From: Acidobacteria bacterium RIFCSPLOWO2_02_FULL_67_21
GTDB taxonomy: Bacteria > Acidobacteriota > Vicinamibacteria > Vicinamibacterales > UBA2999
Direction of reading: 5' to 3'
Assembly: GCA_001767195.1 (NCBI GenBank)
Contig: MEKU01000004.1
Coordinates: 24,736 to 59,193, forward strand
DNA length: 34,458 nucleotides
Of the stretch, positions 23,047-32,102 are shown piece after piece. Under the pieces are notes generated by a model. That model was not told where the DNA came from, did not search any database, and saw only the letters and a program-made list of their open reading frames with translations. The position numbers and the translations under genes were made by a program. Numbering within the stretch: the stretch's first letter is position 1; every line of letters begins with the position of its first letter.

Positions 23047-23090
23047 GAGGAAGACGACGAAATGAGGAACCGCTTCGCGACCCCCGTCCG

Positions 23091-23130
23091 AAATAGATGG
23101 GGTCGGGACTCCCGACCCCATCTAATCCGC
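23091..23130. repeat. GACCCCAT palindrome, copy 2
   Basis: AGATGGGGTCGGGA-C-TCCCGACCCCATCT is a perfect 14-bp inverted repeat around one base, followed by AATCCGCT. It matches copy 1 at 20136 in the core (GACCCCAT) and in the trailing TCCGCT. It lies between egtD and the tannase gene and may act as a terminator. Confidence 0.85.
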
Positions 23131-23145
23131 TCGCTGGAGGCGTTC

Positions 23146-24666
23146 ATGGCGGGCATCGTCCTTTCCCGCGGCAGGCTGCTGTCGGCTGCCGCCGTTCTCC
23201 TCGCTGCGCCCGCTCTGGCAGGCGCGCAGACCTGCGAGTCGATCTCGTCGCTGCGGCTGCCGTCCACCACCATCACGTCCGCAGCGTCGGTTGCGGCCGG
23301 CGCGCTCGGCCGGGCCGCGGCCGCCCTGCAGAATCTCCCCGCGTTCTGTCGCGTGGAGATGACCATTGCACCGACGCCCGACTCCGACATCACAGTGGAA
23401 GTCTGGATGCCGGCGAGCGGCTGGAACGGCAAGTTCCTGGCGGTCGGCAATGGCGGCTGGGCCGGCAGCCTCAACACCGCGGGGCTCGCCGCCGGGATCC
23501 GGCGCGGGTATGCCACCGCGAGCACCGACACGGGCCACACCGCCGGAGCGGGCGGTGGCGGCGGACCGTGGATGCAGAACCGCGAGAAGCGCGTCGACTT
23601 CGGCTACCGCGCCGTCCATGAAACAGCCGAGAAGGGCAAGGCGGTCGTCAGGACGTTCTACGGGAGCGCCGCCCGGCTGGCGTACTTCGACGGGTGCTCG
23701 GGCGGCGGCCGTCAGGGCCTGAAGGCGGCGCAGCGATTTCCGGCAGATTTCGACGGGATCGTCGCCGGCGCGCCCGCGCTCAACGCGACCGGCCGCGCCG
23801 CCTTCGCGATGTCGATTGCGCAGACCGTCCACGCCGACGCCGCCAGCTTCATACCGAGCTCGAAGTTTCTCCTCATTCACAAGGCCGTGCTCGACGCCTG
23901 CGACGCGCGCGACGGCGTCGCCGACGGCGTGCTCGAGAATCCGAAGGCCTGCGCCTTCGATCCCGCCGTCTTGCAGTGCACGGCGGGCGACGGCGCGGCG
24001 TGCCTGACGCCGGCCCAGGTGGCCTCGACGCGGGCGATGTACGCGCCGCTCGCGCACGCGCGATCGAAGGACCGCCTCTTCCCGGGCCTCTCGCCCGGCA
24101 GCGAGCTCGGATGGACGACATTCGCCGGGCCCGAGCCGTTCGAGATCGCCCGACAGATGTACGAGTTCATGGTCTTCAACGATCCCGAATGGAACTTCAA
24201 GGCGCTCAATTTCGATTCCGACATGGACCGTGTCCGGACGATCGAAGCCGGCGTCATCGACGCCAGGGACCCGAACCTCGCGCCGTTCGCCGCCCGCGGC
24301 GGCAAGCTGATTCAGTACCACGGGTGGGCCGATCCGCAGATCCCGGCGCTCAGCAGCGTCGAGTACTACGAGTCGGTCGTGAAGACGAGGGGCGGCACAG
24401 GCCGGGTGCACGACGCGTATCGGTTGTTCATGGTGCCCGGCATGGGCCACTGCGGCGGCGGCAGCGGGACGTCGACCTTCGACATGCTCGGCGCGCTGGA
24501 GCGCTGGGTCGAGCAGCGGCAGCCCCCGGATCGCATTCCGGCTGCACGGATTCTGAAGGGCGTGACCGACCGCACGCGCCCGCTCTGTCCGTATCCGCAG
24601 GTCGCCCGCTACACGGGGACGGGCAACACTGACGACGCGGCGAATTTTTCGTGTGGGCCACCATAA
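23146..24666 (+). CDS. Exported tannase/feruloyl esterase family protein
   Basis: 506 residues. The signal peptide is MAGIVLSRGRLLSAAAVLLAAPALAGAQ. The alpha/beta-hydrolase domain has the CS-D-HC arrangement of tannases and feruloyl esterases: Cys184-Ser185 in FDGCSGGGRQ, Asp396 in YHGWADPQIP and His435-Cys436 in PGMGHCGGG, with the two cysteines expected to form a disulfide beside the active site. The lid has DARDGVADGVLENPKAC, which looks like the calcium-binding loop of this family. It probably hydrolyses phenolic esters such as galloyl or feruloyl esters outside the cytoplasm; the exact substrate is unknown. The ATG at 23146 has GGAGG five bases upstream. The track start at 23062 runs through a palindromic repeat and is rejected. 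Confidence 0.9.
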   Translation: MAGIVLSRGRLLSAAAVLLAAPALAGAQTCESISSLRLPSTTITSAASVAAGALGRAAAALQNLPAFCRVEMTIAPTPDSDITVEVWMPASGWNGKFLAVGNGGWAGSLNTAGLAAGIRRGYATASTDTGHTAGAGGGGGPWMQNREKRVDFGYRAVHETAEKGKAVVRTFYGSAARLAYFDGCSGGGRQGLKAAQRFPADFDGIVAGAPALNATGRAAFAMSIAQTVHADAASFIPSSKFLLIHKAVLDACDARDGVADGVLENPKACAFDPAVLQCTAGDGAACLTPAQVASTRAMYAPLAHARSKDRLFPGLSPGSELGWTTFAGPEPFEIARQMYEFMVFNDPEWNFKALNFDSDMDRVRTIEAGVIDARDPNLAPFAARGGKLIQYHGWADPQIPALSSVEYYESVVKTRGGTGRVHDAYRLFMVPGMGHCGGGSGTSTFDMLGALERWVEQRQPPDRIPAARILKGVTDRTRPLCPYPQVARYTGTGNTDDAANFSCGPP

Positions 24667-24757
24667 CGTGAGGGAAGCTCTCGATGACCGAAACCGGCTG
24701 ACCCGTCGTATACTCCCTCAGCTGCGGTCAGAGACTGTAGGAGCCGTTTCATGCACT

Positions 24758-24850
24758 CGTAGTGCCCGGCTGTAGCCGGGCTGACCACCTTCGCCAAGGC
24801 TACGGTGGTCCGCCGAAGCTTCACGCGAAGGCGGAAGCCCGGCACTACGT
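24758..24850. repeat. Compound palindromic repeat (CGTAGTGCCCGGC family, copy 5, with inner hairpin)
   Basis: The outer ends are CGTAGTGCCCGGC and AAGCCCGGCACTACGT. Inside are a GCCCGGCTGTAGCCGGGC hairpin and a further block ACCACCTTCGCCAAGGCTACGGTGGT followed by CCGCCGAAGCTTCACGCGAAGGCGG. The whole can fold into a branched structure. It lies in the 205-base gap before the PQQ dehydrogenase gene, ending about 20 bases before its start. Confidence 0.8.
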
Positions 24851-24871
24851 TGCGAATTAATGGAGGAGACG

Positions 24872-27013
<2,142 letters not shown>

Positions 27014-27015
27014 AC

Positions 27016-27474
27016 GTGAAAACAGACACCCGAGACGGGCCACAGAGGCACAGAGGCACAGAGAAAATCTGGCTCTGTGTCTCGGTGTCTCTGTGGCTTC
27101 TGATCGGCACCGTGGCGATCGGTCAAACCGTGTGGGACGGCGTGTACACCGAGGCCCAGGCCACGCGCGGAGAGGCGACCTACAACGAGCGCTGCTCGGC
27201 CTGCCACGGCACGGAGCTCGAAGGGGGCGACATGACGCCGGGATTGACGACCGGCATGTTCACGTCGAACTGGAACGAGTTGACCGTCGGCGATCTGTTC
27301 GAGCGTATCCGCATTACGATGCCCCTTGACAATCCCAGTTCGCTGTCGCGCCAGCAGGTGGCCGACGTCGTCGCCTTCCTTCTCAAGGCCAACAAGTGGC
27401 CGGCGGGGGAGAGCGAACTGCCGCGCGAGACGTTCGCGCTCAAAGAAATTAAGATTCTGAGCCTCAAGCCGTAG
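27016..27474 (+). CDS. Exported c-type cytochrome with repeat-derived signal peptide
   Basis: 152 residues from a GTG two bases after the PQQ dehydrogenase stop. One heme site CSACH (Cys60, Cys63, His64) sits in ATRGEATYNERCSACHGTELEGGDM; a likely distal Met is in IRITMPLDNPSSLS, and QQVADVVAFLLKANKWPAG is the C-terminal helix. The mature part begins near QTVWDGVYTEAQ. The N-terminal region is basic (QRHRGTEK) and then hydrophobic (IWLCVSVSLWLLIGTVAIG), which is good for a signal peptide. It is encoded almost exactly by the CACAGAG hairpin repeat: the left arm gives the basic part and the right arm the hydrophobic part. It probably takes electrons from the upstream quinoprotein. No clear ribosome-binding site is visible, so translation is probably coupled. 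The track start at 26650 lies inside the upstream gene. Confidence 0.82.
   Translation: MKTDTRDGPQRHRGTEKIWLCVSVSLWLLIGTVAIGQTVWDGVYTEAQATRGEATYNERCSACHGTELEGGDMTPGLTTGMFTSNWNELTVGDLFERIRITMPLDNPSSLSRQQVADVVAFLLKANKWPAGESELPRETFALKEIKILSLKP
27039..27097. repeat. CACAGAG hairpin repeat, copy 2, inside coding sequence
   Basis: GCCACAGAGGCACAGAGGCACAGAGA, a short loop, then CTCTGTGTCTCGGTGTCTCTGTGGC. It has the same design as copy 1 at 4107-4177 with a shorter loop. It lies fully within the 5' coding part of the cytochrome gene. Confidence 0.85.
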
Positions 27475-27518
27475 TCCGGCGGCATTCAGCCGCCCAGCGC
27501 ACTGGGAGTAGATTCGTC

Positions 27519-27953
27519 ATGAAGTCGATTATTCGATTCGTTGTCCAGATCGCACTGCTCACCGCCGTGCTCGCGGGGCTGCCAGCGGCCGGCTACGCGC
27601 AGGAAGCCACGATGAGCGGCACCGTGAGCGATTCAACCGGCGGCGTGCTGCCGGGGGTTACCATCACGGCCGTGCACGAGGCGTCCGGCAATACCTTCGA
27701 AACGGCGACCGATGAGCGCGGAATCTACCGGATTCCGCTCCGCATTGGCGGGTATCGCGTGACCGCCGCGCTCGCAGGCTTCGCGACCGTGACGCGCACC
27801 GGGCTCGAAGTCCTCGTAGGGCAGCAGACGACGGTGAACCTGCAGATGGCCCCCTCGTCGCTGCAGGAATCGGTGACGGTGACGGCCGAAGCGCCGCTGG
27901 TGGACGTGTCGCAGTCGCGCGCGAGCGGTAACGTCGGCTCACGCCAGATGTGA
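27519..27953 (+). CDS. TonB-dependent receptor, N-terminal part (split by apparent frameshift)
   Basis: 144 residues: signal peptide MKSIIRFVVQIALLTAVLAGLPAAGYAQ, then a carboxypeptidase-regulatory-like domain (EATMSGTVSDSTGGVLPGVTITAVHEASGN to VNLQMAPSSLQE) and the start of the plug-side linker SVTVTAEAPLVDVSQSRASGNVGSRQM. In intact receptors of this class the text continues as RQM-x-ELPVNGRNW. Here TGA follows Met, but skipping one T gives ATG-(T)-GAGGAGCTGCCGGTGAACGGC, which restores EELPVNGRNW in the next frame. It is therefore the 5' part of one gene with the ORF at 27964. GGGAG lies ten bases before the ATG. Confidence 0.85.
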   Translation: MKSIIRFVVQIALLTAVLAGLPAAGYAQEATMSGTVSDSTGGVLPGVTITAVHEASGNTFETATDERGIYRIPLRIGGYRVTAALAGFATVTRTGLEVLVGQQTTVNLQMAPSSLQESVTVTAEAPLVDVSQSRASGNVGSRQM

Positions 27954-27963
27954 GGAGCTGCCG

Positions 27964-30417
27964 GTGAACGGCCGCAACTGGCAGGATCTGGCGCTGCTCG
28001 CGCCTGGCGCGCGGGTGAATGCGGTCGTGCAGGTGGCCGTGTCCGGCAACGGCATGCAGGGCAACTACCACGTCAACCTGGACGGCCAGCAGGTGACCCA
28101 GAACACCGGCGGCGGGCTCGGTGCCTTCGGGCAGCCCCGGTTCAGCCGCGATTCGATCGCGGAGTTCGAGTTCGTCGCCAACCGGTTCGACGCCACGCAG
28201 GGCCGGTCGGCCGGCGTGCAGGTGAACGCCATCACGAAGTCGGGCACGAACGCGTTTGCCGGAACGGCATCCGGGTACTTCCGGGACGATCGGTTCAGGG
28301 CTGAAGACTTCATCCAGCGCCGCGTGCTGCCGTATTCGGACCAGCAGTACAGTTTCACCGGCGGCGGGCCGATCGTCCGCGACAAGTTTCATTTCTTCGC
28401 CAACTACGAGTACGAGCGCGAGCCGCAGACGCTCACCTCGTCCAGCCCGTTTCCGAGCTTCAACATCGATCTGAGCAGCGTGAGGACGGTCGATCTGAGC
28501 GGCCTGCGGCTCGACAACCAGTTCTCGCCGCGTATGCGCTATTCCATGCGTGCGTCCCACTACGAGGAAGTGATTCCCAACGAGAGCGCCGGCGGGGCGG
28601 TGCGTCATCCGTCGACCGGCCTGATGCGGAAGCTGTCGGGCGATCAGATCATCAACACGTTCACGCAGGTGCTCAGCAACCGGTCCGTGAACGAACTCCG
28701 GGCGGGGTGGCTTGGCTACACGTGGCGCCTGGAAACCATGCTCGACGTGCCGAACCCCATCTATCAGGTGCCCGGCCTGGAAGACCAGGTCGGCCCACCC
28801 GTGATTCAGCTGCGCGGCTACACGATCGGCGGCGGCAATGCGAACACGCCGGAGCGGATGGGGAACAACACCTGGTCGATTCGCGACGACTTCACGCGAT
28901 CCTTCGATCTCGGCGGACGCATGGACGTGAAGCTCGGCGGCGAGTACCTGTTCGTCGATCACTATATCTATCTGTGCCGGTTCTGCATGGGCGTACTCGA
29001 CGTCCAGAACGGTCCGATTCCGGCCAACATCGAGTCGCTGTTCCCGGTGTGGAACGATCCCTCCACGTGGAACATCAACGCGCTGTCGCCCCTCTCCCGC
29101 CGGTTCCAGATGGGGATCGGTAACTTCCAGTTCTACCCGCCACGGCACGTAGGCGCGTTCTGGGTGCAGGACGACTGGGCGATCTCACCGAAGGTGACGC
29201 TGAATCTCGGCGTCCGTTACGACGTCGCAAAGGGCATCTGGGGCGAGGATTACGAACTGCTGCCATTTGTGAAGAAAGGCGCTCCGATCGACAAGAACAA
29301 CATCGGTCCGCGCGTCGGCATGGCGTACAGCCTGGACGATCGCACCGTCATTCGCGGCGGCTGGGGCAAGTACTTCGGCGACATGAGCGACCAGCCGACC
29401 CACGGCCTCGTGGGCTATGTCGAGAGCTTCGTGCCCGAAGTGAATTACGACCGCCGGGCCGACTTCGCGATCAATCCCTTCAACGGTCCGACACCGAGCT
29501 ACCAGGAGATCGCGCAACGGCAGTGCCCGGTGAACCCGGCGCCGAACTGCGTGCGCCAGAACCTGCTGTCGCACATGGTCGGGCCGGTCAACGAAACGAC
29601 CTACAGCTATCAGACGTCGATTGGCGTGCAGCGTCAGCTCGCCGCGTCGATGGCGGTCGAGGCGGACTACGTCTCCACCCGGAGTCGCGCGGAGGTCTAC
29701 ACGCACAATATCAATCTGAGCTACAACCCCGCGACCGGTGTGAACTATCCGTTCACCGACATCAGCCGGCGTCCCTTCCCCGACTGGGGCGTCGTGGAGC
29801 CGTACTATCCGGACGGCTGGACGAACTACCAGGCACTGCAGATGGCGTTCTCGAAGCGCTTCAGCAACCGCTGGCAGGCGTCGGCCACCTACCTCCTGTC
29901 GTCCACGAAGGACGGCACGCCGCCTCCCCGCACAGGCCTGTACGATGTTGTGACGTTCCCGGTAGCGGAGGACCTGGGCGGTGAGTACACCTACGCCGGC
30001 TCCGATCAGCGGCACCGGGCCGTCTTCAACGGCATCTGGGACATGGGATACGGCTTCCAACTGAGCGGCGTCTACTTCTACGGCTCCGGTCTCCGTTACG
30101 GAACGACATACGGCGGCGACCTCCGCGCCTACGGGACCGGACGTGGTGCCCGTCTGCGCCCGAACGGGACGATCGTGCCGCGGAATGATCTTGTCGGCGA
30201 GCCGAACCATCGCATGGACATGCGGGTGCAGCGGCGCTTCGGTATCCGCCGCGTGCGGGTCGACGGGATTCTCGAAGTGTTCAACGTGTTCAACCGTGAG
30301 AACTATGGCTCGTACACGACGCAGGAGAGCAGTGCCAGCTACGGGCGCCCCTCGCAGAATCTGAACGTGGCGTACCAGCCGCGGATGCTGCAGCTCGGTT
30401 TCCGTGTGGCGTTCTGA
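27964..30417 (+). CDS. TonB-dependent receptor, plug and beta-barrel part (split by apparent frameshift)
   Basis: 817 residues, opening MNGRNWQDLALLAPGARVNAV and continuing through the plug (GNYHVNLDGQQVTQNTG, DSIAEFEFVANRFDATQGRSAGVQVNAITKSGTNAFAGTASGYFRDDRF) into a large outer-membrane barrel. It ends LQLGFRVAF with the terminal phenylalanine needed for barrel assembly. This is the Oar/CarboxypepD_reg type of receptor that takes large substrates across the outer membrane using TonB energy. On its own it lacks a signal peptide. A GAGGAG six bases before its GTG could allow reinitiation, but the product could not be exported, so it is either a frameshifted gene or a base-call error. Vgb-like gene follows 11 bases later. 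Confidence 0.87.
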   Translation: MNGRNWQDLALLAPGARVNAVVQVAVSGNGMQGNYHVNLDGQQVTQNTGGGLGAFGQPRFSRDSIAEFEFVANRFDATQGRSAGVQVNAITKSGTNAFAGTASGYFRDDRFRAEDFIQRRVLPYSDQQYSFTGGGPIVRDKFHFFANYEYEREPQTLTSSSPFPSFNIDLSSVRTVDLSGLRLDNQFSPRMRYSMRASHYEEVIPNESAGGAVRHPSTGLMRKLSGDQIINTFTQVLSNRSVNELRAGWLGYTWRLETMLDVPNPIYQVPGLEDQVGPPVIQLRGYTIGGGNANTPERMGNNTWSIRDDFTRSFDLGGRMDVKLGGEYLFVDHYIYLCRFCMGVLDVQNGPIPANIESLFPVWNDPSTWNINALSPLSRRFQMGIGNFQFYPPRHVGAFWVQDDWAISPKVTLNLGVRYDVAKGIWGEDYELLPFVKKGAPIDKNNIGPRVGMAYSLDDRTVIRGGWGKYFGDMSDQPTHGLVGYVESFVPEVNYDRRADFAINPFNGPTPSYQEIAQRQCPVNPAPNCVRQNLLSHMVGPVNETTYSYQTSIGVQRQLAASMAVEADYVSTRSRAEVYTHNINLSYNPATGVNYPFTDISRRPFPDWGVVEPYYPDGWTNYQALQMAFSKRFSNRWQASATYLLSSTKDGTPPPRTGLYDVVTFPVAEDLGGEYTYAGSDQRHRAVFNGIWDMGYGFQLSGVYFYGSGLRYGTTYGGDLRAYGTGRGARLRPNGTIVPRNDLVGEPNHRMDMRVQRRFGIRRVRVDGILEVFNVFNRENYGSYTTQESSASYGRPSQNLNVAYQPRMLQLGFRVAF

Positions 30418-30428
30418 GGGAGATTGAT

Positions 30429-32102
30429 ATGCGTATCGTAACCGTCGCACTGTCGCTGGGCATCGCCGTGCTGTGTGCCTCGGTCCGGCCTCAGGCCGCC
30501 GATGCCGTGATCCGTGGAGTGGTGGCCGATTCGGCCGGCAAGCCGATCGCCGGCGCGCTCGTCAAGGCGACGCTCGGCAGCAAGAGCGTGTCGCGCTACA
30601 CGGGCGCGGACGGCCGCTACGAGCTGACCGTCGCCCCCGGGACGTACGCGCTCGTCGCGGAGGCGTTCGGGTACGCCACCGAGCGGCGCTCGCGGGACTC
30701 CGCGGCCGATGGCCCCGCGAACTTCTCCCTCGGATCGAGCTGGAGCGTGACGCAGTTTACCGGCGCCGACATCGACCGGCTGATCCCGGACGATCACGCG
30801 CCGGCTCAGCTGCTCAAGTCGACGTGCATCAACTGCCACGCGCTCGACGTGATGCTGCGGCGGCGCGGCTCGACGGCCGCGCAGTGGCGGGCCTACGTCG
30901 AGAAGCAGATGCCGCTCCGCTACGGCCGAAACTTCGGCGCGAGCGAGGCGGAATGGAAAGTCATCACCGGCGAGCTGGAGCGCTGGTTCGGGCCCAAGGG
31001 CCAGTATTTCGGGCCCGGCGCCGAGCCGCCGAAGCCGGAGCAGGTCCGCCGTCCGACGATGGCCCCCGAAGTGGCCCGCGCGACCTTCCTTGAATACACG
31101 CTGCCGAACCCGCGGAGCATGCCGCACAGCCTCGCGGTCGACCAGGCCGGACGCGTCTGGATTGCCGGTTGGGACAATCCGACCAACGCGGTGCTTCGCT
31201 TCGATATCGCGACGGAGCAGTTCAAGACGTACCCGGTGCCGACGCCGAATGCAGTGCCGCATACACCGTGCGTCACGCGGGACGGCCGCGTCTGGATGGC
31301 GCTCAACGCCCGCGGCACCGCGAAGGTGGCGCTCATCGACCCGAAGACCGATCAGCTCGTGGAATTGAAATGGGACGCCAAGGGGCCTGGCACGCACAGC
31401 TGCCAGGAAGACAGGGAGGGCAACGTCTGGTTCTCCTCGCTCGGTGAAAGCGACGAGGGATTCTACGTATACAACCCGAAGACGTCGCAGTTCCGGAGCT
31501 ACAAGTACCGCCTGCCGAGCGCCTATCCGGCCGGGTCGAAGGCGCTGCGCGATACCGCCGAAGGGGACGCCCCGCCGCAGCAGGTGCGCGCAGGGATGTA
31601 CGACGTGGACGTCGATTCGGGCGGCGCCGGGTGGGGCGGCGCGTACTCGATGGGCATGATCGTGCGGGTGGATCCGAAGACCGGCGATACGAAGGAGTAC
31701 TACCCGCCCGATACGCCGCAGATCCGCGGGGTGTTCGTCGATTCGCAGGACACCGTCTGGTTCGCCGCCTTCGACAGCCACAAGATCGGCAAGCTCAACC
31801 CGAAGACGGGCGAAATGAAGTTCTACCAGCCGCCGACCGAGAAGGCCGCGCCGTACAGCTTCGTGGAAGACCGGCGCCGCGGCGTTCTCTGGTTCGGCGA
31901 CCTGAACGGCAACAATCTCACGCGATTCGACCCACGGACGGAGACGTTCATCGAGTATCCGTTCCCGAGCCGCAACGTCAACCCGCGGCTCGGCATCGGC
32001 ATCGACCCGCAGGGCCGGATCTGGTTCACGGAGTTCCTCAACGGCCGGATTGGCGTGCTCGATCCGGGCGACCTGCCGCGCACAGCGGTGATCGCTCGGT
32101 AA
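30429..32102 (+). CDS. Three-part exported protein: carboxypeptidase-regulatory domain, c-type heme domain, Vgb-like propeller (second copy)
   Basis: 557 residues and a paralogue of the protein at 6623-8413. The signal peptide is MRIVTVALSLGIAVLCASVRPQAA; the regulatory-like domain is AVIRGVVADSAGKPIAGALVKATLG to about residue 102; the heme site is CINCH (Cys133, Cys136, His137) with a possible Met ligand in EKQMPLRYG. The Vgb-like propeller follows from about residue 215, with blades such as SLAVDQAGRVWIAGWDN, VTRDGRVWMALN, REGNVWFSSLGE and IDPQGRIWFTEFLNGRIGVLD. It is periplasmic, probably redox-linked. The ATG is preceded by GGGAG six bases away and lies 11 bases after the TonB receptor, so it is the last gene of that operon. 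Streptogramin lyase activity is not implied. Confidence 0.85.
   Translation: MRIVTVALSLGIAVLCASVRPQAADAVIRGVVADSAGKPIAGALVKATLGSKSVSRYTGADGRYELTVAPGTYALVAEAFGYATERRSRDSAADGPANFSLGSSWSVTQFTGADIDRLIPDDHAPAQLLKSTCINCHALDVMLRRRGSTAAQWRAYVEKQMPLRYGRNFGASEAEWKVITGELERWFGPKGQYFGPGAEPPKPEQVRRPTMAPEVARATFLEYTLPNPRSMPHSLAVDQAGRVWIAGWDNPTNAVLRFDIATEQFKTYPVPTPNAVPHTPCVTRDGRVWMALNARGTAKVALIDPKTDQLVELKWDAKGPGTHSCQEDREGNVWFSSLGESDEGFYVYNPKTSQFRSYKYRLPSAYPAGSKALRDTAEGDAPPQQVRAGMYDVDVDSGGAGWGGAYSMGMIVRVDPKTGDTKEYYPPDTPQIRGVFVDSQDTVWFAAFDSHKIGKLNPKTGEMKFYQPPTEKAAPYSFVEDRRRGVLWFGDLNGNNLTRFDPRTETFIEYPFPSRNVNPRLGIGIDPQGRIWFTEFLNGRIGVLDPGDLPRTAVIAR

Follow-up and report, generated by a model that had tools for sequence, protein, structure and literature searches.

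A TonB-dependent receptor gene split by one extra base in a draft genome of an Acidobacteria bacterium

A gene for a TonB-dependent receptor in Acidobacteria bacterium RIFCSPLOWO2_02_FULL_67_21 is open in two successive frames and not in one, and this raises the question of whether the gene has recently been lost, has been misread in the draft sequence, or still yields a working product by some regulated route. The window analysed here is the whole 34,458-nucleotide stretch of DNA that carries the gene. The first-pass annotation had proposed a single-base frameshift and offered four explanations, namely sequencing error, recent inactivation, a phase-variation-type switch, and recoding. We find that the frameshift stands and that recent inactivation accounts for it best; sequencing error persists as a rival, and phase variation and recoding fare poorly.

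The two pieces of the receptor gene

The features that bear on the question are as follows, all on the forward (+) strand. The signal peptide and TonB box were identified by eye.

24860–27013, +, PQQ-dependent dehydrogenase, upstream of the receptor (PF01011, E=5e-173)
27016–27474, +, cytochrome c, between the dehydrogenase and the receptor (PF13442)
27519–27953, +, 5' piece of the receptor gene, with signal peptide MKSIIRFVVQIALLTAVLAGLPAAGYA, CarboxypepD_reg domain (PF13620, E=4e-19), TonB-box-like SVTVTAEAPLVDV, and the end ...SRQM-TGA where homologues continue in frame
27951–27954, +, the lesion, TGAG, at which the frame change exposes a TGA
27952–27966, +, Shine-Dalgarno-like GAGGAG-CTGCCG-GTG
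27955–30417, +, 3' piece, a TonB-dependent receptor plug and beta-barrel, complete to the terminal Phe (PF25183, E=6e-85; PF00593)
30429–32102, +, protein with a CarboxypepD_reg domain and a Vgb-lyase-like propeller, downstream of the receptor (PF24684, PF13620)

The 5' frame runs from an ATG at 27519 through 144 aa, the last of them ...GNVGSRQM, to a TGA at 27951–27953, and the ORF reading agrees with the first-pass annotation in both the position and the residues of this frame end. The downstream frame reads GAG (27952), GAG (27955), CTG, CCG, GTG (27964), AAC and onwards to a TGA at 30415–30417, ending ...LGFRVAF; homologues aligned across both halves bear out the proposal that ELPVNGR follows QM in this frame. 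The same homologues are matched first by one half and then, directly adjoining, by the other (for example, 69% identity over 120 aa and then 53% over 824 aa), and the arrangement is therefore the split of one gene and more than chance. In all 33 homologues that align with both halves, exactly one residue (3 nt) separates the M of QM from the residue preceding LP, and the window has 4 nt at this place; the lesion is thus an insertion of one base (+1) and not a loss of two (-2), which rules out a two-base deletion.

An N-terminal CarboxypepD_reg domain and a receptor barrel ending in Phe are both recognizable, from Pfam matches above cut-off, Foldseek matches and the terminal VAF, and the ancestral gene would have encoded an ordinary large TonB-dependent receptor of the CarboxypepD_reg type. 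The Foldseek matches listed for the 3' piece are TonB-dependent or SusC-type receptors (YddB at 3e-19, FusA, PqqU and FptA), although the AlphaFold model behind them is modest (pLDDT 60, pTM 0.64) and poor in the plug region; a sequence search of solved structures with the receptor gave no match. The gene lacks the one continuous reading frame of a receptor and carries a disabling lesion that is not seen in homologues, at a site where the break is not conserved, as in a pseudogene. On both sides of this lesion the coding sequence is otherwise intact, as had been claimed: it keeps 151 of 154 near-invariant residues, as intact members do, there is no second lesion within the 2.9 kb of the gene, and its end branch (0.51) is like that of other lineages that stand alone in the tree. 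Because the sequence is so pristine on either side, the break must date from very recently if it is real at all.

The receptor lies in a same-strand run (23062–32102) consisting of a tannase/feruloyl esterase-family protein, the PQQ dehydrogenase, the cytochrome c, the split receptor, and the Vgb-like propeller with its CarboxypepD domain. Given these neighbours, one might guess that the former receptor served in uptake of a plant-derived compound.

The break site in homologues

A scan of all loci sampled identified 58 distinct intact homologous sites of the form (R/Q/K)Qxxx(L/I)PxxGR(N/D), and all of them read through in one frame, which is the comparison with relatives that the first-pass annotation had called for. 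The homologues in the order, collected from 59 and then 162 genomes, are nearly all single open frames, mostly of ~950–1100 aa. The same genome contains two intact paralogues, on contigs C7 and C67, with 73% and 70% DNA identity to the gene over its 5' region. Since the homologues and both paralogues read through, the stop is not conserved, and nor is the frame change. No orthologue from the same genus was present in the genome contigs searched (the best match has 47% identity), and the exact site sequence had no match in viral contigs.

Among 22 receptor loci in the sampled stretches of relatives none is split, and broken receptor copies with different lesions do occur in relatives. One (G087:C126:15703–18548, L232) is broken across the same junction of extension and plug by an out-of-frame deletion of ~25–40 residues, and another (G092:C10:54864–57656, L227) has an in-frame TAG in its N-terminal CarboxypepD domain. 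Single in-frame TAG codons are also seen in receptor frames at G013:C21:10584, G017:C85:5273, G092:C55:2827 and G092:C42:6245, and these four may be nonsense pseudogenes.

Recent loss and sequence error

As every intact relative lacks the extra base, the gene is most likely an ordinary one that is freshly broken. We put at roughly 0.6 the probability that it is a pseudogene made by one recent indel, in a receptor repertoire that is redundant and in decay, and favour this over an error in the sequence. The extra base would then be truly in the chromosome, where its insertion at the junction of the N-terminal extension and the plug would have inactivated the receptor. Ribosomes would halt at the new TGA and release a 144-residue exported Ig-like domain; any plug and barrel made by reinitiation at the GTG at 27964 would lack both signal peptide and TonB box and could not reach the outer membrane, so that no functional product is expected from the gene.

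Some 25 or more such receptors are encoded in the genome. Two of these are intact and close in sequence to the split one, and others are visibly decaying. Loss of one receptor would be tolerated because of this redundancy. The decayed copies include a receptor broken by an out-of-frame internal deletion of ~76 residues (G000:C37:29673–31842; L044, L075), a short remnant close to an intact paralogue (G000:C7:92873–93360, L072), and a remnant of a shorter receptor with a large internal deletion and several frame changes (G000:C5:141752–142788, L172), of which an intact homologue is found in another genome (G011:C41, L094).

A less likely account is that the extra base is a sequencing or assembly (consensus) error and that the organism itself has an unbroken gene from which a full receptor is made. 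One lesion, in a gene that is fully conserved elsewhere and has an ordinary branch, is just the look of an intact gene plus an error, the assembly is a draft of 107 contigs, and error is the general expectation for singleton frameshifts (PMC3711429). Against this, the site is not a homopolymer, in agreement with the first-pass annotation, and the damage in other receptors of the genome exceeds what base-calling errors could produce. There is also no comparable break in the remainder of the genome that was tested: a comparison of 808 kb with relatives' proteins gave 214 ORFs whose in-frame homology spans 80 aa or more, and after inspection none of the ~205 that are not receptors contained a frame break, which rules out a generally poor assembly. 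By the rule of three the error rate in this sample is roughly below 1 per 70 kb, a bound that is compatible with one error in the 34-kb window. Four candidate breaks were set aside on inspection, one whose frames lie opposite real genes, on the other strand (C19:49397), one in a masked stretch of N (C19:61876), and two that, judged from coordinates only, reflect a fused query aligned with tandem genes (C67:9034 and C5:113478).

Broken loci thus number at least 4 of ~11 sampled receptor loci and 0 of ~205 other ORFs (~4e-6 by a hand-computed hypergeometric count), a strong contrast with two caveats: receptors are the easier genes to test, having more homologues, and the C37 locus was found by a different look. 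This difference points to birth-and-death turnover in the large receptor repertoires of bacteria of this sort. The single site carries little weight, frameshifted receptor genes being common, and it is the wider pattern of broken receptors among intact ORFs that is of modest interest.

Regulated readings and known systems

Receptors are surface-exposed and often variable, and the broken allele could in principle be one of two in the population, whether as a strain polymorphism or through low-frequency switching on and off, and be the one that the consensus happened to capture. We regard this as improbable: the site contains no tandem repeat or homopolymer, the only inverted arm is a chance one of 12 nt lying 385 nt away, and within the same genome there is no invertible or duplicate cassette and no near-identical second copy (the best has 73% DNA identity). 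A similarly slight chance attaches to a composite reading in which a population-level on/off polymorphism, or a split coupled by reinitiation at the extension–plug junction, occurs in a receptor repertoire turning over by repeated breakage.

More doubtful still is a working two-piece protein made by translational coupling. As the first-pass annotation had noted, GAGGAG (27952–27957) precedes an in-frame GTG (27964–27966), which is at near-ideal spacing 6 nt past AGGAG and lies 10 nt past the stop. However, conserved residues account for the motif, and a Shine-Dalgarno-like run 4–9 nt before a GTG is present inside the unbroken frame of 4 of the 58 intact homologues; it is explained as a by-product of the conserved (Q/E)ELPV codons, and such a signal after a stop should be treated with caution, since it can arise in this way. 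The GTG-started product was also correctly predicted to lack a signal peptide, so the plug and barrel would stay cytoplasmic, and no relative is split in such a way. No promoter or terminator was found at the break site.

Programmed +1 recoding to a full receptor is the least probable of the readings: although the gene is otherwise conserved and the change needed is a +1 shift at a UGA, in relatives neither a stop nor a change of frame is seen at this base (the one broken at the same junction, G087:C126, carries a deletion instead), a tRNA paired with AUG in the P site cannot shift by one base and re-pair on UGU, and the downstream RNA structure is no more stable than shuffled sequences (z -0.45). 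The same +1 change at an in-frame UGA is found in prfB (release factor 2), but prfB has a CUU-UGA slip, a conserved stop and an upstream Shine-Dalgarno stimulator, and the receptor gene has none of these.

Returning to recent inactivation, the closest known relatives of the gene are the CarboxypepD_reg-type TonB-dependent receptors with an OMP_b-brl_4 barrel (PF13620 and PF25183), of which there are many copies in this order of Acidobacteria-like genomes. The gene has the same domain order, the plug-start motif (x)xLPVNGRNW and a barrel with terminal Phe, and is ~45–56% identical to intact members, but differs from them in being split after the N-terminal extension by one extra base. As a frame transition it fits the GeneTack scheme, in which non-conserved transitions supported by homology are filed as pseudogene or error (PMC3711429), and it resembles the singleton frameshifts and hypothetical pseudogenes of that study in its homology and Pfam support, its non-conserved site and its lack of a stimulatory motif. 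In that study, on older genomes, a BLAST-validated singleton was expected to reflect a sequencing error more often than a true indel (PMC3711429), whereas here error is weighed against indel by means of the background count of breaks and the lesions that sister genes in this genome carry.
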